Positions 22,099 through 27,661 of a stretch of DNA of 29,447 nt are shown here, piece after piece; within the stretch, counting starts at the first letter, position 1; every line of letters begins with the position of its first letter. The notes under the pieces are model-generated. The model worked only from the letters and a program-made list of their open reading frames with translations, was not told where the DNA came from and did not search any database. This DNA is from a virus. The position numbers and the translations under genes are program-made. The stretch lies in the IMG/VR virus record IMGVR_UViG_3300036466_000233, positions 1 to 29,447 of that record. One strand, given 5' to 3'.

Positions 22099-22239
22099 AT
22101 GCTGGACTGGAAAAATATTAACGACTCAGCCCCGCTTTGTTATGGTGATGCCGCACATGCTTGCATCACCGGACCAATCCCAAAGCTCGAAACCCCCAGC
22201 CTACACGCGCTATTTGGGCGAAGAAATGATGGGGCATAA
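22099..22239 (+). CDS. 46-residue hypothetical protein
   Basis: MLDWKNINDSAPLCYGDAAH ... RRNDGA, behind CGGGAGCAATT. It contains two Cys in a short globular sequence. Its stop codon lies within the box-like GCATAAC that starts the first palindrome of the cassette-like region. Function is unknown. Confidence 0.45.
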   Translation: MLDWKNINDSAPLCYGDAAHACITGPIPKLETPSLHALFGRRNDGA

Positions 22240-22290
22240 CGCCTGAATTTTTGGGCTGCCGAAGGCGGTCCCGCGATGCAGGGCGCGGCA
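22234..22290 (+). repeat. Degenerate attC-like palindrome (site A)
   Basis: GCATAACGCCTG, then GGGCTGCC-GAA-GGCGGTCCC, then CAGGGCG. Outer (CGCCTG/CAGGGCG) and inner arms pair imperfectly, but no GTTRRRY box closes it. It is probably a decayed or hybrid site. Confidence 0.35.
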
Positions 22291-22320
22291 CTGCACTGCA
22301 TCTTGCGCATGGAGCTAAAT

Positions 22321-22551
22321 ATGGCACGAACGCTGGAAATGTTTGATAAACCGCGAAAGAAGCGCGAATGGTTGATGCACGTTGTTGACTGCGCGAACGG
22401 AAATTGCGGAGAGCTTGAGGACGGCGAGCAGGTGGTGGCAATGGTGTGCGCCAGGTGCGGGCACGAGTCAGGATGGATTTCACTGCCAAGTATGACTGCG
22501 GCAAAGAGAGGGCTTCCATGCCAGGAGTGCAATAAGGTGCCCAACGTATGA
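22321..22551 (+). CDS. Small Cys-rich (zinc-ribbon-like) protein in cassette-like unit
   Basis: 76 residues from ATG 22321 (GGAG nine bases upstream). It has Cys pairs in 'VDCANGNCGE', 'VCARCGHE' and 'LPCQECNK', consistent with zinc binding. The stop codon TGA (22549-22551) lies inside attC-like site B, as is common for integron cassette genes. The longer in-frame start upstream would run through the preceding palindrome and is less likely. Confidence 0.5.
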   Translation: MARTLEMFDKPRKKREWLMHVVDCANGNCGELEDGEQVVAMVCARCGHESGWISLPSMTAAKRGLPCQECNKVPNV

Positions 22552-22603
22552 GTTCACCGGCTGGCCGCTTTTGGCGAAGCTCCCCTGGAATGATGGGTTG
22601 GGC
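22539..22603 (+). repeat. attC-like recombination site (site B)
   Basis: R''-type box GCCCAAC (22539-22545) and R'-type box GTTGGGC (22597-22603) are exact complements and fit RYYYAAC/GTTRRRY. Between them 'TGAGTTCACCGG' and 'CCCCTGGAATGA' give L-box-like arms around a GCCGCTTTTGGC hairpin. The length of 65 bp is in the attC range. Confidence 0.65.
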
Positions 22604-22635
22604 CGCGACCCCAGACTTTTGAGAGAGGAATGGAA

Positions 22636-22851
22636 ATGTACATTTTGCCGCAACCGCATAAGTGCCCGAAATGTGGCCACGAATGTCAATTCAGCCCACA
22701 CGAAGGACACGGAGCGCCAGTGTTTAACTCCGGGCCGGTGTGCCCAAAATGCTGGGGAGAGTTTGTGCTATCCGTAGCGCCGATCATGGATTGCGTAACG
22801 CTCTCACGGAATAAGGACGAGACGCCCAACGTAATATATACGACAAAATGA
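22636..22851 (+). CDS. Small zinc-ribbon protein in cassette-like unit
   Basis: 71 residues from ATG 22636 (AGAGGA with 6-nt spacing; ATG 22630 is too close to it). Two CxxC pairs, CPKCGHEC (residues 10-17) and CPKCWGEF (about 36-43), predict a zinc ribbon. The 3' end runs through a box GCCCAAC (22824-22830) that complements the GTTGGGC at the beginning of this unit, and the reading continues for some codons past it, suggesting the original cassette end was lost. Confidence 0.5.
   Translation: MYILPQPHKCPKCGHECQFSPHEGHGAPVFNSGPVCPKCWGEFVLSVAPIMDCVTLSRNKDETPNVIYTTK
22824..22830 (+). repeat. Orphan attC-type R'' box (end of cassette B)
   Basis: GCCCAAC followed by GTAATA; it is the exact complement of the R' box GTTGGGC at 22597-22603. 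No further attC arms follow, so the site is truncated. Confidence 0.45.
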
Positions 22852-23003
22852 CTAAACAATATTTCATCCTGCCGATAGGCCGTCAGTCCGCGCTGGATGC
22901 GGTCAGGAACGCGCCAGACGGCATGAGCGTGACGATTGCAGAGGTGCAGCGAGGACGTGGAAGCGCGGCGGTATTTCAAAAAGTGGGCTACGGGAGGGGT
23001 TGA
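22848..23003 (+). pseudogene. Possible NinB N-terminal remnant
   Basis: 51 residues. 'QYFILPIGRQSALDAVRNAP' and 'DGMSVTIAEVQRGRG' resemble the first 40 residues of NinB-type recombination proteins (usually about 140 residues), but the frame ends at TGA 23001. It may be a truncated gene replaced downstream. The ATGA overlap with the upstream stop shows that it is still in a translated context. Confidence 0.35.
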
Positions 23004-23005
23004 GA

Positions 23006-23197
23006 ATGTTTATCCATGAAAAAATAATGCTTAACGCAATTGATTTGTTGGACGAGTACCACCTTGAAAATGTAGATTTGATCGGAGAGTTATGCCACGC
23101 CGGGTTTGTTCTGGCGGCATTTAATGATGACGGCTTGCGGAAACTGAGAGATGAGCTGAGAATTAGGGCAGAAAATGAAAAAGCGCAGCAAGCCTGA
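23006..23197 (+). CDS. Small hypothetical protein
   Basis: 63 residues from ATG 23006 (GGGAGG upstream). Acidic and helical ('MLNAIDLLDEYHLENVDLIG'), with a coiled-coil-like end. It overlaps the next gene by 23 nt. No family is recognised. Confidence 0.45.
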   Translation: MFIHEKIMLNAIDLLDEYHLENVDLIGELCHAGFVLAAFNDDGLRKLRDELRIRAENEKAQQA

Positions 23198-23648
23198 AAC
23201 ATTCTCGATGCGCGTGATTCGCGGTGGCTTCGCTCCGGCAGACGCTTACACGGCCTCGCGATTGCGCGAGAGAGGTTATCACATTGATGATATAGTTGGA
23301 TGTACGTTCAGAAAATTAAACTCACCAGCGTTTAACAGGCTGGTACATCGGATCGGGCAGCTATGCGTGGCGAATATCGATGAGTTCCACGGCATGGAGG
23401 CTCACGCAGTGCTGAAGCGGTTGCAGTGGGAAGGGAATATCTGGTGTGATGAAATGGCGGTCATGATTTCTGGGGCAGGAATGGCGATAGTCAGAACCCC
23501 GAGGTCATTGGATTTCGACACTGCCGATGATGGAGAGCGACACGTTATAGGTCGGGCATTCTGTCGCTGGATAGCTGAAAAGTATTGGAAAACCTTAACC
23601 CCAGAACAAATCAATGAAATGGCGGAGAGCTTTATCGATGAGGTATGA
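23175..23648 (+). CDS. Conserved nin-region-type phage protein, unknown function
   Basis: 157 residues. 'RVIRGGFAPADAYTASRLRERGYHIDD' and 'FNRLVHRIGQLCVANIDEFHGMEAHAVLKRLQ' (both quoted in part) match a conserved protein I know from proteobacterial phages near ninB/ninG. The Arg/His-rich N-terminus and 'FCRWIAEKYW' C-terminal helix suggest a soluble nucleic-acid-associated protein. Its activity is not known. Confidence 0.6.
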   Translation: MKKRSKPETFSMRVIRGGFAPADAYTASRLRERGYHIDDIVGCTFRKLNSPAFNRLVHRIGQLCVANIDEFHGMEAHAVLKRLQWEGNIWCDEMAVMISGAGMAIVRTPRSLDFDTADDGERHVIGRAFCRWIAEKYWKTLTPEQINEMAESFIDEV

Positions 23649-23666
23649 TTTGATTTTTAGGCACGG

Positions 23667-24194
23667 ATGAAGCAAAAAAAGTGTAAGGCGTGCAAGGAGC
23701 TTTTTACTCCCAGCAGGCCACTGCAATCTTTTTGTGATTTTGATTGCGCTCTTCTGGTGGCGAAATCATTGAGACAAAAGGGTGAGCGAAAAGAATTGAG
23801 GGCGGCGCGCGTTAAGGCCAAGACGCGCCGGGACTGGATAGCAGATACTCAGGCAGCAGTTAATCGATACATTCGCGCCAGGGACGTTAAGGCAGGGCTA
23901 CCATGCATATCATGCGGCAGATTTCACCAAGGGCAAAACCATGCTGGGCATTACCGCGCTACCAGCATAGCTCCCGCGATTCGATTCCATCCTGAAAATA
24001 TTTGGCTTCAGTGCCAGCCATGCAACGTACATAAGCACGGCAATTTGCTGGAATACAGGATTGAGCTGATAAAACGGATCGGCGTAGAGCGAGTAGAATG
24101 GCTGGAATCTGATCACGAGCCAGTGAAGTATACAATTTTGCAGCTAATTGAAATAAAAAAAGAATATGCAGCACTGCTGAAGGGATTAAAATAA
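23667..24194 (+). CDS. ninG: NinG recombination protein
   Basis: 175 residues. An N-terminal zinc knot (C6, C9, C23, C27) in 'KKCKACKELFTPSRPLQSFC' and a second Cys-rich core 'CISCGRFHQGQNHAGHYRA' (C80, C83, H92/H95) with 'QCQPCNVHKHGNLLEYR' (C116, C119) are the hallmarks of lambda NinG (Rap). This family binds branched DNA and helps resolve recombination intermediates during phage growth. The length is close to the usual 180-200 residues. Confidence 0.9.
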   Translation: MKQKKCKACKELFTPSRPLQSFCDFDCALLVAKSLRQKGERKELRAARVKAKTRRDWIADTQAAVNRYIRARDVKAGLPCISCGRFHQGQNHAGHYRATSIAPAIRFHPENIWLQCQPCNVHKHGNLLEYRIELIKRIGVERVEWLESDHEPVKYTILQLIEIKKEYAALLKGLK

Positions 24195-24207
24195 ATACAC
24201 AAATATG

Positions 24208-24236
24208 TTGCATTACTCAAATAATTGTAGTAATAT
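24208..24236 (+). promoter_or_regulatory. Promoter for the small membrane protein
   Basis: TTGCAT (24208-24213), 17-nt spacer, TAATAT (24231-24236). ATTAC and GTAAT arms within the spacer form a short inverted repeat that could be an operator. An own promoter is typical of cassette-like or moron genes. Confidence 0.55.
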
Positions 24237-24281
24237 GATTTCACGGTTCAGGAAAAGCCGGATAATTTAGGAGTAGCGAAC

Positions 24282-24413
24282 ATGGACACAGCATCAGAAA
24301 CCGTATTAGGCATTATGCTTTGGTGGGTAGCTGGGATGATCATTACCTTTGCTATCGGCAAATACTTGGCAGGTGTTGTCGAGTTCAAGGATTGGAAATG
24401 GCCTTGGAGATAG
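24282..24413 (+). CDS. 43-residue single-helix membrane protein
   Basis: MDTASETVLGIMLWWVAGMI ... WPWR. One membrane helix (about residues 8-30), then an amphipathic Trp/Lys end. An AGGAG site precedes the ATG. It lies behind its own promoter and ends just before attC-like site C, the usual position of a cassette gene. Function is unknown. Confidence 0.55.
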   Translation: MDTASETVLGIMLWWVAGMIITFAIGKYLAGVVEFKDWKWPWR

Positions 24414-24416
24414 ACA

Positions 24417-24478
24417 CCCCCAACGTATGAATTCAGCGGCTCGCGCTTCTGCGAGTCCGCTGGAATGATGGGTTGTGC
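24417..24478 (+). repeat. Best attC-like recombination site (site C)
   Basis: CCCCAAC (24418-24424) and GTTGTGC (24472-24478) flank TGAATTCAGCGG-CTCGC and GCGAGTCCGCTGGAATGA. The inner arms pair almost perfectly apart from a single extrahelical G and a single extrahelical T on one side, leaving a GCTTCT loop. Asymmetric extrahelical bases in the folded strand are the distinctive property of integron attC sites. The R'' box deviates from RYYYAAC at the first base and R' has a T at a purine position. Confidence 0.7.
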
Positions 24479-24499
24479 GTCAATACTACGGAGTGAGGA

Positions 24500-25246
24500 A
24501 TGAATGAGTTGGCACTTTTTGCAGGGGCAGGAGGAGGTATCTTGGGAGGGAAGCTGCTTGGATGGCGCACCGTCTGCGCTGTTGAGTTTGCTGCCTACCC
24601 TCGGCGCGTCTTGCTTGCCAGACAGCGCGACGGAATGCTTGAGCCTTTCCCAATCTGGGACGATGTGCGAACCTTTGACGGAAAGCCGTGGCGCGGGAGA
24701 GTTGATGTCGTCAGCGGTGGATTCCCTTGCCAAGACATTAGCAGCGCCGGGAAGGGGGCTGGAATCAGCGGGGAACGTAGCGGATTATGGGGAGAGATGG
24801 CACGCATTATTAGCGAAGTACGACCCCGCTTTGTGTTTGTGGAAAACTCGCCAATGCTCACTATTCGAGGACTTGGAACAGTCCTTGGAGATTTGGCCTC
24901 GATGGGGTTTGATGCAAAATGGGGAGTGCTGGGAGCAGGACATTTGGGAGCGCCCCACCTTAGAGAGAGATGCTGGGTTGTGGGATACCCCATGCAAAGG
25001 GGATGCTCACCCAAGGGCATACAACCGGAACAAGATTTACAGCGGGGCAGGGCAGAAACATTTGCAGGCTCAGGCTTACGAAAAATTAACCCCTCATTGC
25101 GTGATGGGTGGAAAGCTGAACCCGCAATGGGTCGAGTGGTTGATGGGATGGCCGATGGGATGGACAGAATTGCCGCGCTTGGCAATGGACAGGTTCCAAT
25201 CGTGGCGGCTACAGCATGGCGGATTTTGACGCACAACGTAAAATAG
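24500..25246 (+). CDS. dcm: DNA (cytosine-5) methyltransferase, cassette-borne
   Basis: 248 residues behind GTGAGGA. It shows FAGAGGG (motif I, 7-13), GGFPCQDIS with catalytic Cys77 (motif IV), ENSPM (VI, 115-119), APHLRERCW (VIII) and GNGQVP (X, 228-233). It transfers methyl groups from SAM to cytosine; no cognate restriction enzyme is visible, so protection or regulation is likely. The target domain is short (about 60 residues). The unit lies between R' GTTGTGC (24472) and R'' GCACAAC (25231), the latter inside the stop region (LTHNVK). A second frame overlaps almost all of it. Confidence 0.9.
   Translation: MNELALFAGAGGGILGGKLLGWRTVCAVEFAAYPRRVLLARQRDGMLEPFPIWDDVRTFDGKPWRGRVDVVSGGFPCQDISSAGKGAGISGERSGLWGEMARIISEVRPRFVFVENSPMLTIRGLGTVLGDLASMGFDAKWGVLGAGHLGAPHLRERCWVVGYPMQRGCSPKGIQPEQDLQRGRAETFAGSGLRKINPSLRDGWKAEPAMGRVVDGMADGMDRIAALGNGQVPIVAATAWRILTHNVK
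24504..25229 (+). CDS. Overlapping family-like frame within the methyltransferase gene
   Basis: 241 codons open in the +1 frame, starting at ATG 24504, four bases after the methyltransferase ATG. The text 'ADYGERWHALLAKYDPALCLWKTRQCSLFEDLEQSLEIWPRWGLMQNGECW' (quoted in pieces) and 'GGKLNPQWVEWLMGWPMGW' matches a conserved sequence I know from databases as a phage 'methylase-associated' protein. The resemblance runs over most of the frame. Both frames therefore look constrained. Whether it is translated is unknown. Confidence 0.45.
   Translation: MSWHFLQGQEEVSWEGSCLDGAPSALLSLLPTLGASCLPDSATECLSLSQSGTMCEPLTESRGAGELMSSAVDSLAKTLAAPGRGLESAGNVADYGERWHALLAKYDPALCLWKTRQCSLFEDLEQSLEIWPRWGLMQNGECWEQDIWERPTLERDAGLWDTPCKGDAHPRAYNRNKIYSGAGQKHLQAQAYEKLTPHCVMGGKLNPQWVEWLMGWPMGWTELPRLAMDRFQSWRLQHGGF
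25231..25237 (+). repeat. Orphan attC-type R'' box (end of methyltransferase cassette)
   Basis: GCACAAC, the exact complement of the R' box GTTGTGC at 24472-24478. It is followed by GTAAAATAG rather than an L box, so the rest of the site is missing. Confidence 0.5.
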
Positions 25247-25298
25247 CCCCCAATAAATAACCTAAAATTTTATCAGGACAAATATATTAGGTGTGATA

Positions 25299-25481
25299 AT
25301 GGCTGATGAGGCAGATAGAGGCAATGATCGAGCGCAGGAGTGGCTGGATGATCAGATTGCTGCATCACGCAGGACGCTTGATCCGGGCAATCCTGGCGAC
25401 TGCGATAAATGTGGGGAGCATTCAGGTAGGTTGATATTCGGGAATTGTGCTAGATGCCGTGACCGATACAGGCTACCATAG
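25299..25481 (+). CDS. DksA/TraR-type C4 zinc-finger protein
   Basis: 60 residues from ATG 25299 (AGGTG site; the GTG two codons earlier lacks one). C35-x2-C38 and C50-x2-C53 in 'CDKCGEHSGRLIFGNCARCRDRY' (23 residues, in part) form the four-Cys finger of TraR-like proteins, after an N-terminal helical 'MADEADRGNDRAQEW' segment. Such phage TraR homologues bind the RNA polymerase secondary channel and alter host promoter activity. Confidence 0.75.
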   Translation: MADEADRGNDRAQEWLDDQIAASRRTLDPGNPGDCDKCGEHSGRLIFGNCARCRDRYRLP

Positions 25482-25550
25482 CAGCGATTCAATATTTTCA
25501 TGGAAACGCTACAATCTGGCCTGGGAAGGGCGTGCGGGGTCAGAAACGTA

Positions 25551-25567
25551 GCAGGCTCGTAGCCTGC
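25551..25567. other. Perfect 7-bp hairpin
   Basis: GCAGGCT-CGT-AGCCTGC in the gene-free stretch after the zinc-finger gene. There is no T-run on either strand, so it is not a standard intrinsic terminator. A second hairpin (GGTACGAT-AAA-ATCGTGCC, 25588-25606) follows. They may be part of a structured 3' region. The rest of 25482-25716 holds only the repeat at 25606 and its long inverted repeat. Confidence 0.5.
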
Positions 25568-25605
25568 ACTCCAAAATATACGGTATCGGTACGATAAAAT
25601 CGTGC

Positions 25606-25642
25606 CTTTGGGGCCGGACAACGCTAAAACCCAATTTACATA
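25606..25642 (+). repeat. 37-bp direct repeat, copy 1
   Basis: Matches 26695-26731 at 36 of 37 positions. It contains GGACAACGCTAAAACCC. In this copy CTAAAACCC also pairs with GGGGTTTTTAG near 25704-25714 and CATAAAA with TTTTATG, forming a long hairpin with a GCGC-GCTTTT-GCGC tip. Confidence 0.85.
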
Positions 25643-25716
25643 AAAACCAAGGGGTCGCGCGCTTTTGCGCAAAGCATCCTGTAGATTTTATGCAATCTAA
25701 TGCAGGGGTTTTTAGT

Positions 25717-25889
25717 GTGGCGGTGGCCGAATTGGTAGAGGCGCTACCTTAGATGCCGAAAGCGGAAACGCCAAGGTAATAGCGGGACGCTCTAGAGCGT
25801 GTTGCCGGTGCGGTTGCCTCATGAGTGAGAAGGGCAATCGATCCGGGAGGGCACTCAGAATCCAGGTTCGAATCCTGGCCGCCACACCA
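25717..25889 (+). tRNA. tRNA-like gene with about 85 extra nucleotides between D- and T-arms
   Basis: The ends are canonical: acceptor GTGGCGG (25717-25723) with CCGCCAC (25879-25885), D-arm GCC...TTGGTAGAGGC, T-arm CCAGG-TTCGAAT-CCTGG, and encoded CCA (25887-25889). The total is 173 nt against 75-90 expected. The presumed anticodon stem TACCTT (25745-25750) pairs with AAGGTA (25773-25778) around a 22-nt loop, so no anticodon can be read with certainty (UAG in the 5' part, GCC at the 3' edge). A perfect 14-bp palindrome lies at 25787-25800. It may be an interrupted tRNA, one with an extreme variable arm, or a pseudogene. Confidence 0.6.
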
Positions 25890-25893
25890 AAGG

Positions 25894-25933
25894 CCCCTAA
25901 CGAAAAGTTAACTGGCGCAGCGCCGGGTTGTGC
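25894..25933 (+). repeat. attC-like recombination site, short (site D)
   Basis: CCCTAAC (25895-25901) ... GTTGTGC (25927-25933) around GTTAACTGGCGC-AG-CGCCGGG. The site is shorter than usual (about 40 bp). The 14-nt GGGTTGTGCGTCAA at its right end is shared with site C. Confidence 0.45.
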
Positions 25934-25955
25934 GTCAACTTTTAAGGAGTAAACG

Positions 25956-26120
25956 ATGTTACGAAAAACAGATAAATTTTTAAAACGCCACGCAAAAGTT
26001 TGGGAGCGTGGGCCTCGCAAAGATGAAATTGTAACTGAAATTGTTAGGCGTGAAACTTGGTGGATATTATTCATAATTCCAGTTTTAAGCATAGATACAA
26101 TTGTAGATAAACCGCGATGA
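25956..26120 (+). CDS. 54-residue protein in cassette-like unit
   Basis: MLRKTDKFLKRHAKVWERGP ... DTIVDKPR behind AAGGAG. A basic N-terminal half is followed by a hydrophobic segment (ETWWILFIIPVLSIDTIV) that may anchor it to the membrane. The stop TGA sits two bases before box GCACAAC of site E. The unit from GTTGTGC (25927) to GCACAAC (26122) is a complete cassette-sized element of about 200 bp. Confidence 0.5.
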   Translation: MLRKTDKFLKRHAKVWERGPRKDEIVTEIVRRETWWILFIIPVLSIDTIVDKPR

Positions 26121-26121
26121 C

Positions 26122-26185
26122 GCACAACGTTCAAATTGAGGGGCTGCGCGCTTTTGCGCAGTCCCGCTTGAGCGTAGGGTTGGGT
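26122..26185 (+). repeat. attC-like recombination site (site E)
   Basis: GCACAAC (26122-26128) and GTTGGGT (26179-26185) flank a long imperfect hairpin with tip CTGCGC-GCTTTT-GCGCAG, extended by GGGG/CCCG and TCAA-type arms. The left box is the exact complement of the GTTGTGC that starts the preceding unit; the right box belongs to the next one. Confidence 0.6.
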
Positions 26186-26209
26186 TGTTTTGCGTATTAC
26201 AAATATCGC

Positions 26210-26238
26210 TTGACAAGGCTTGATATAAGTAATACATT
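26210..26238 (+). promoter_or_regulatory. Promoter inside cassette-like unit E
   Basis: Perfect -35 TTGACA (26210-26215), 17-nt spacer, TACATT (26233-26238), upstream of the 26286 gene. Confidence 0.55.
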
Positions 26239-26285
26239 AACAACATGCAAGGCGCGGTGCCGAGCAGATAACCAAGGAGATCGAA

Positions 26286-26498
26286 ATGAGCAAAGAATAT
26301 ACAATCGTGGCGGAATTAGTGGCGGCAGAAGCCGGAAGCAAAGGGCATGTGCTGCGGTCAGGCGGGTACGAGATTGGCGGTCAAGATGTGCCGATCAGTT
26401 ACAGGCTTGAGGATGTCAGCTCGCCAACAGGCGGGGTAAGAAAAGATGTTGTTGGATGGTTTGACGGGAAAAATGTAAGCCCCATCAACAATGCCTAA
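26286..26498 (+). CDS. Small hypothetical protein in cassette-like unit
   Basis: 70 residues (AAGGAG site). 'EYTIVAELVAAEAGSKGHVL' and 'GGYEIGGQDVPISYRLED' suggest a small beta-rich, OB- or SH3-like domain. It has its own promoter. The 3' end overlaps the next gene by eight bases. No family is recognised. Confidence 0.45.
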   Translation: MSKEYTIVAELVAAEAGSKGHVLRSGGYEIGGQDVPISYRLEDVSSPTGGVRKDVVGWFDGKNVSPINNA

Positions 26499-26673
26499 AA
26501 CAACGCACGGCGGCCCCGTAAGGGGTCAAGGGCGCAAGCCACTGCCCGATGATGAGCGCACCGTAGTAGCAACGGTGCGCCTCACCCCGGCGCGGCGCGA
26601 CAAGCTGCGCAGGTTGGGCGCGCAATGGCTTGCAAAAATGCTTGATCGGGCGAAAGAGCCTGATGCAACCTAA
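26491..26673 (+). CDS. Small basic DNA-binding-type protein
   Basis: 60 residues. 'KTTHGGPVRGQGRKPLPDDE' includes GxGRKP, an AT-hook-like motif, followed by 'VVATVRLTPARRDKLRRLG' reminiscent of ribbon-helix-helix proteins. It may bind DNA as a regulator. The stop lies inside the R''-type box ACCTAAC (26668-26674). Confidence 0.5.
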   Translation: MPKTTHGGPVRGQGRKPLPDDERTVVATVRLTPARRDKLRRLGAQWLAKMLDRAKEPDAT

Positions 26674-26674
26674 C
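26668..26674 (+). repeat. attC-type R'' box (end of unit E)
   Basis: ACCTAAC, complementary to GTTGGGT (26179-26185) with one G-U pair. No GTTRRRY follows; the 37-bp repeat begins 21 bp later. Confidence 0.4.
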
Positions 26675-26694
26675 GCAAAATTAACTATACGGCA

Positions 26695-26731
26695 CTTTGG
26701 GGCCGGACAACGCTAAAACCCAATTCACATA
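26695..26731 (+). repeat. 37-bp direct repeat, copy 2
   Basis: 36 of 37 positions match 25606-25642. Here it is followed by only CAGGAGG and then TTTTATGCAAT, which also occurs after the longer hairpin of copy 1. Confidence 0.85.
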
Positions 26732-26742
26732 CAGGAGGTTTT

Positions 26743-27006
26743 ATGCAATTTAAAATTGGCGACAGGGTAGAAACGGATTTCAATGAGGATGGAGTATTCA
26801 CTTCGCATATTATCACTCAAGTGCATGAAATAAAGACTTCGTGCATCAAATATAATAAAGATGGCGAGCCTCAAGAATATCATATGGAGGACTATCCATT
26901 GCATCCACCGAAGCGCAGAGTCCAATACAGGGTAGACCCGCCCGTAGAATCATTTAATGATAACCCGTTGATTGATTCCGGGTGGTTTACACTTGATATT
27001 TACTAA
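26743..27006 (+). CDS. Small hypothetical protein (KOW/SH3-like start)
   Basis: 87 residues with a CAGGAGG site. The start 'MQFKIGDRVETDFNEDGVFT' is typical of small beta-barrel phage proteins with a 'xGDxV' motif. It contains no catalytic motif. The ribosome site and start lie in the right half of a repeat. Function is unknown. Confidence 0.45.
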   Translation: MQFKIGDRVETDFNEDGVFTSHIITQVHEIKTSCIKYNKDGEPQEYHMEDYPLHPPKRRVQYRVDPPVESFNDNPLIDSGWFTLDIY

Positions 27007-27052: not shown

Positions 27053-27661
27053 ATGGCACTCACACCCAAACAGGAAGCGTTTGCTCAGGCATACCAAGGC
27101 AGCAAGAGTTTTTCTCAGGCGGTTGCCGAAACTGGCGCAATCCACTCAACAGGATGTGGGTATTACGTTTATTTCCTGATAGACCCGACAAATCAAGAAA
27201 TATTTTATGTTGGCAAGGGGAAGGGTAATCGTGTTGCCAGCCATGTGAAGCAGGCAATCAATGGAAATATTGCCAATGCGGAAAAGCACAAAAGAATCAC
27301 AAATGTCATTTCGGCAGGGGAAAGGGTACAGGAGTTCATTTTTGAGCATTACGATGTAGAGCGAGACGCCTTTGCTTGTGAAAAGTTTTTCATTGAAGCA
27401 ATCCGTTATCTTGGGATCACGAATATCGCTAATGGTGTGATGACCAATGATGAGAAGGTAAGCGAGGAGGCTAAATTCCTACTTACCCAACTTGCTCCAG
27501 TTAGCTGGCTTAATTCCCACGGAAAACCCGAAATGCGGGAGGTTATTGAGGCAAGGTTCGGGAGCTTTGAGGCTTACGGCGACTTTTTGAGGGTAGCTCT
27601 GAATAAGTTGATTATTCCGTCTAAAGTAGACGAAAGTAGAGATGCCGTGTATGGCCAATAA
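27053..27661 (+). CDS. GIY-YIG nuclease with small-terminase-like N-terminus
   Basis: 202 residues. Residues 1-15 (MALTPKQEAFAQAYQ) are the standard opening of small terminase subunits. From residue 37 the sequence becomes a GIY-YIG domain: 'GYYVYFLIDPTNQEIFYVGKGKGNRVASH' (quoted in part), with Y52-V-G54, R60 and a Glu candidate at 110. The C-terminal 80 residues are unassigned. It looks like a homing-type nuclease fused to, or inserted in, a terminase gene. Stand-alone endonuclease is the safest reading. Confidence 0.7.
   Translation: MALTPKQEAFAQAYQGSKSFSQAVAETGAIHSTGCGYYVYFLIDPTNQEIFYVGKGKGNRVASHVKQAINGNIANAEKHKRITNVISAGERVQEFIFEHYDVERDAFACEKFFIEAIRYLGITNIANGVMTNDEKVSEEAKFLLTQLAPVSWLNSHGKPEMREVIEARFGSFEAYGDFLRVALNKLIIPSKVDESRDAVYGQ

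Follow-up and report, generated by a model that had tools for sequence, protein, structure and literature searches.

A partly decayed attC cluster in a phage genome, probably part of a phage-specific integron cassette variant with inverted genes

Clusters of attC sites without an intI gene (CALINs) were described in phages by Qi et al. (2023; PMC9892861). According to the accessible part of that paper, IntI1 is active on phage attCs, the arrays carry methyltransferase genes as cargo, and the phage MW202573 (Caudoviricetes sp. ctTUS972) is among the carriers; the capture of integrons by Vibrio prophages is also published there. For chromosomal integrons, the bottom strand engaged in recombination is known to be on the leading-strand template, and excision increases upon inversion (PMC11023631). 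The locus analysed here resembles the phage CALINs, and especially that of MW202573, in having an attC cluster without intI, a DNA methyltransferase as cargo and structural genes in common. The difference lies in gene polarity, on which the accessible text of PMC9892861 is silent: the array of MW202573 and most phage arrays that we examined are antisense, their genes running against the attC sites. With the chromosomal and class 1 integrons of Proteobacteria, the phage arrays share attC sequence and structure, the match between facing cassette ends, cassette size and stop codons located at the boxes. However, the genes of these integrons run along attC and are driven by Pc, whereas phage genes run against attC.

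The window, i.e. the whole stretch of DNA analysed, is an IMG/VR virus record of 29,447 bases. It contains genes for DNA ejection, endolysin, tail fibre, RecT, a DnaD-like loader, DnaB, NinG and TerL, and by its structural, packaging and replication genes it is a phage genome. Structural genes are shared with MW202573 at 67-69% nucleotide identity, and the window phage is a relative of this phage; a search of GenBank phages with the window at the DNA level gave no match. An earlier note on this DNA had argued that such an array would make phage genomes possible recipients or carriers of cassettes. attC arrays in phages were already published in 2023, a relative of the window phage included (PMC9892861, as far as its accessible text goes), and the new element here is the polarity of the genes relative to attC.

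For the detection of attC sites we used a covariance model (R1) built from 18 aligned bacterial attCs with trimmed central loops. The training sites came from the strand and flank that hold the cassette arrays at bacterial integron integrase loci, and the window was excluded from training. The window was searched with every filter off; the E-values are rough because the calibration was short. As a control, 784 kb of bacterial loci yielded 51 matches, all in the intI-side flank and on the expected strand, and therefore the background of R1 is very low, although this set takes in the loci that supplied the training sites and speaks for specificity more than for sensitivity. Three sites in the window (A, B and D in Table 1) scored above background, all of them on the minus strand; on the plus strand the best score was 9.1 bits, at site A. 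Thus, three of the four sites proposed in the earlier note were recovered, with a polarity opposite to the one it had assigned. Previously, two hand-made palindrome scanners had missed the sites, one expecting unbroken arm pairing and the other using too-strict boxes, and the covariance model was used instead. A pattern scan of genome contigs for the window attC gave 0 matches where about 7 were estimated by chance, a zero that we do not trust.

Sites A, B and D fit the R''/R' and L''/L' boxes, the extrahelical bases and the spacers of the model. In all three the bottom strand is predicted to fold more stably than the top strand (A, -10.1 vs -8.5 kcal/mol; B, -16.3 vs -14.0 kcal/mol; D, -16.3 vs -11.4 kcal/mol), as is the case for 86% of 214 phage sites. 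Judged by sequence, A, B and D are almost certainly attC sites. When R1 was applied to relatives of the window phage collected by dnaB (L003-L012), no attC match was obtained; array and dnaB are therefore not conserved together in this lineage.

Table 1. Predicted attC sites, putative attC relics and genes of the array region (window coordinates)
Feature	Position	Strand	Basis
Possible attC relic	22228..22256	-	blast E 4e-4; R1 8.0 bits
Cys-rich small protein	22276..22551	+	ORF; C-terminus PNV encoded by the attC R' box of site A
attC site A	22539..22603	-	R1 41.0 bits, E 2e-8; 83% identical to attC of phage record L050/G001
Cys-rich small protein, candidate cassette gene	22630..22851	+	ORF; weak zinc-ribbon match
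Possible attC relic within the final part of ORF 22630-22851	22817..22836	-	blast E 3e-3
nin-type phage genes, several overlapping, the last being NinG (23667-24194)	22848..24194	+	ORFs; PF05766 E 5e-58
43 aa membrane-type protein ending at site B	24282..24413	+	ORF
attC site B	24417..24478 (R1: 24421-24475)	-	R1 27.9 bits, E 4e-5; upstream of methyltransferase unit
C-5 cytosine DNA methyltransferase, cassette gene, shortened	24500..25246	+	PF00145 E 3e-27; unit also in G025 and G015
Truncated attC, R' end of the site closing the methyltransferase unit	25225..25249	-	40 nt at 97.5% to G015 attC
attC relic, apical part	25645..25671	-	27 nt at 89% to attC L198_11494; similar to others
attC site C, internally deleted; R'' end and L'-R' end present	25889..25934	-	Both ends match attC L162_2043, middle missing
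54 aa membrane-type protein, gene of the C-D cassette	25956..26120	+	ORF; cassette ends match 11/11 (GTTGTGCGTCA)
attC site D	26122..26185	-	R1 31.1 bits, E 6e-6

The remaining site of the earlier note, C (25894-25933), is below the R1 threshold and can be retained only as an internally deleted attC. Among the remnants it had listed, the one at 25231 represents the R' end of a site whose complete form is found in phage record G015 (L227:12407-12469), preceded there by the same methyltransferase. Those at 22234 and 22824 are kept as possible relics with weak matches (Table 1), and the one at 26668 is without statistical support. With site C and the site at 25225-25249 damaged, the region reads as a partly decayed attC cluster.

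The earlier proposal that the nin region holds an integron-type cassette array is borne out by the R1 matches, by the facing cassette ends and by a box-bounded methyltransferase unit shared with other phages (see below). The proposed extent of the array is not, since much of the interval is an ordinary phage operon. The interval 22603-24417 is not a cassette: several ORFs overlap in it, NinG and other nin-type genes among them, a well-supported box between them is absent, and NinG and its neighbours were thus ruled out as cassette genes. Gene stops do abut boxes, as noted earlier; the stop codon of the first Cys-rich ORF, for instance, lies inside site A. The box concerned is R' and not R'', the two having been swapped in that note.

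Several other elements were seen in and around this region. A tRNA gene lies at 25717-25886 between cassette remnants (Rfam, 35.9 bits). It has acceptor, D and T arms, and its anticodon/variable region is longer by about 100 bases; ARAGORN reports none by default and tRNA-Ile(aat) once an intron is allowed. The segments 25606-25701 and 26695-26753 share a near-identical repeat of 37 nt (97%) followed by a second repeat (81%), which extends into the start of ORF 26743-27006 and resembles a duplicated unit start. At 27053-27661, a GIY-YIG endonuclease domain (LEM-3 type) follows an N-terminus resembling a terminase small subunit, possibly a homing endonuclease insertion.

As stated in the earlier note, no integron integrase is present: neither TIGR02249 nor PF00589 gave a match in the 29.4 kb record, which may be a fragment. 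The array, with three sites whose neighbours are 1.6-1.8 kb apart and without intI, is a CALIN and not a complete integron. Among 56 records, a full-length IntI above the curated cut-off was found in two (G035 and G008) and in none of the other 54. G035 has a terminase large subunit gene (by PHROGs), five attC matches (three strong, two weak with 16.6 and 13.2 bits), a methyltransferase and IntI, then a gpW-like and a portal-like gene (both assigned by eye), with the genes in one direction, so that the full-length IntI gene (L221:9355-10377) is flanked by a methyltransferase cassette and head genes. The Mu-like G008 carries MuA (by PHROGs), MuB (by eye), three attCs and IntI; the latter is located in the early operon (L222:17824-18975, also L060), with the three antisense attC sites upstream. 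Relative to intI, the attCs of both phages have the canonical direction, away from it, and the reversal concerns the genes alone. RecE-like exonuclease genes of one family (phrog_7655) are also carried by the array contigs L218, L176 and L158.

A cassette in an integron array has received its initial R' box and the R'' of its own attC from one and the same circle, and a closer match is therefore expected between its facing ends than between both ends of a single attC. In the methyltransferase cassette, TTGACGCACAAC at 25236, in the end of the truncated site, complements GTTGTGCGTCAA at 24472 in 12 of 12 positions. The ends of cassette C-D (25927 vs 26128) match in 11 of 11, and those facing each other from A to B match only partially. 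Over 139 phage cassettes, a full RRRY match was found for 59% of facing ends, 16% of ends within one site and 11% of non-adjacent ends; the bacterial arrays behave alike (68, 17 and 9%, respectively). The summed matches of the phage facing ends amounted to 774, compared with 525 +/- 14 when partners were shuffled. This match between facing R boxes is a signature of IntI recombination.

The box-bounded methyltransferase unit (24472-25240) recurs in two other phage records. Identity to G025 is 75.5% over 24457-24996 and 94.7% over 25202-25239, and identity to G015 is 88% over 25116-25240. With both records the homology stops at the same box (25238), and the attC upstream of the unit in G025 differs. 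The window methyltransferase gene (24500-25246) is without about 500 bases that lie between the same conserved blocks in G025, and its product may be inactive. Site B shares 98% identity over 53-58 nt with attCs in two further records (G003 and G005), which have no longer match to the window. In total, 356 record pairs have an attC-sized match in common, none over 150 nt, and 27 pairs also share something longer. In a small test, mean site identity was about 0.77 when the R''-side flank was shared, compared with about 0.61 for a shared R'-side flank and 0.61 for random pairs. The methyltransferase unit is a counter-case to an attC body travelling with its R''-side flank, since it keeps R'' while the attC body differs.

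In the window, the attCs are on the minus strand and the flanking genes on the plus strand, with stops at R', which is not the canonical orientation of a cassette. For a broader comparison, viral contigs were found by sequence patterns from one attC family, blind to gene direction; they brought in some 200 R1 matches at E up to 0.05. One pattern match, L051, was taken as a chance match within a phage head gene. The bacterial set consisted of intI-adjacent loci together with 274 genomes drawn from the class to which G057 belongs. Polarity was scored with a hexamer coding model, for which viral and bacterial loci together served as the training set, taking the best ORF per strand for each cassette. 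Viral cassettes were antisense to attC in 102 cases, sense in 7 and undecided in 34, so that 102 of the 109 scored are antisense, whereas 60 of the 68 scored bacterial cassettes are sense (8 antisense, 12 undecided; Fisher p = 4e-30). Counted by locus majority, antisense to sense is 43:3 for viral and 1:29 for bacterial loci (p = 2e-16). The locus count is the safer figure because cassettes within one array are not independent, and its independent viral number is slightly smaller, as some loci are redundant (L152/L161, and likewise L165/L184, are pairs from one contig; L186/L200 are from near-identical contigs, and apparently L160/L189 as well). The window, with intervals too long for this procedure, was left out of the count, and its polarity agrees with the antisense majority.

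Among the 102 antisense genes, 65 end in the zone of the R' box, with peaks at -12 (19 genes), -5 (24) and +2 (9). The commonest C-terminus in phage cassettes is the box-encoded PNV, with which the window protein 22276-22551 also ends. R1 finds four attC sites in MW202573, and this array is itself antisense. The Tetrasphaera phage TJE1 likewise has a phage-borne attC array without intI; unlike the window it scores weakly with R1 (21.5 bits) and has sense polarity, and therefore the antisense rule is not universal. Its sites have reportedly been demonstrated to be active. The antisense polarity of phage cassettes is absent from the accessible text of PMC9892861 and from the open-access full-text literature that was searched.

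How could such an arrangement arise? A phage may once have captured a fragment of a bacterial chromosomal integron that has been decaying since, no phage-specific system being involved. The lack of intI in most records, the partial decay of the window sites and the published capture of integrons by Vibrio prophages (PMC9892861, accessible text) are in line with this. However, such a capture predicts the polarity seen in bacteria, which is the opposite of that found in the phages, and it does not account for closely similar attCs and common cassettes in otherwise unrelated phages; we consider it unlikely. The view that the palindromes only look like attC and act as terminators of transcription or as hairpins for RNA processing is even harder to maintain and appears very improbable. 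They do lie at gene ends and fold strongly, and as RNA the transcribed strand exceeds its complement in stability by 3.7 kcal/mol on average. On the other hand, boxes, extrahelical bases and spacers fit a model made of bacterial attCs only, a U-tract is absent after the window sites, and terminators do not predict that RRRY is shared more by facing ends than within one palindrome.

A further possibility is that the inversion is only apparent, the cassettes being sense units which recombine via the other strand, with IntI using the top strand of attC. The point where homology between the window and G025 changes is indeed GTTGTGCG at 24472, which is the right-hand box when read along the gene. 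But it is the bottom strand, preferred by IntI, that is the more stable in most phage sites, the attCs of G035 and G008 have the canonical orientation relative to intI, and the body of attC tends to accompany the flank on the R'' side. Use of the top strand is an unlikely explanation.

In our opinion, the region is very probably a partly decayed CALIN in a NinG/DnaB phage, belonging to a widespread, phage-specific variant of integron cassettes with inverted genes whose members would be exchanged as circles. On the comparisons above, its assignment to this inverted variant is well supported. We infer recombination at the window sites, as well as a source of integrase for the window phage. Cassettes would pass between phages as circles, with an integron integrase acting on the folded bottom strand of attC. 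The enzyme would come from an integron of the host, from another phage, co-infecting or resident, or from the phage's own genome in relatives like G035 and G008. The bottom strand of attC is the coding strand of the phage genes. Expression would rely on read-through of the phage operon and not on an integron Pc promoter, and cassettes whose gene is turned against attC would thereby be selected. The likeliest role of the methyltransferase, provided that it is active, is to shield the phage DNA from restriction.

Altogether, the data suggest that phages trade genes by their own version of the integron system. Somewhat more tentatively, we lean towards a separate integron branch of phages, in which a common pool of attC-inverted cassettes would be exchanged among unrelated phages and expressed from phage operons, some phages encoding IntI beside the array. 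If replication is co-directional, the attC strand used in recombination would end up exposed on the lagging-strand template, a placement avoided by chromosomal integrons. One simple feature, the polarity of the genes with respect to attC, separates the bacterial from the phage cassette pools. If this holds true, phages would swap small anti-host genes such as methyltransferases site-specifically, instead of by the random recombination usually invoked for mosaicism, and the origin of cassettes would become directly testable in small genomes.
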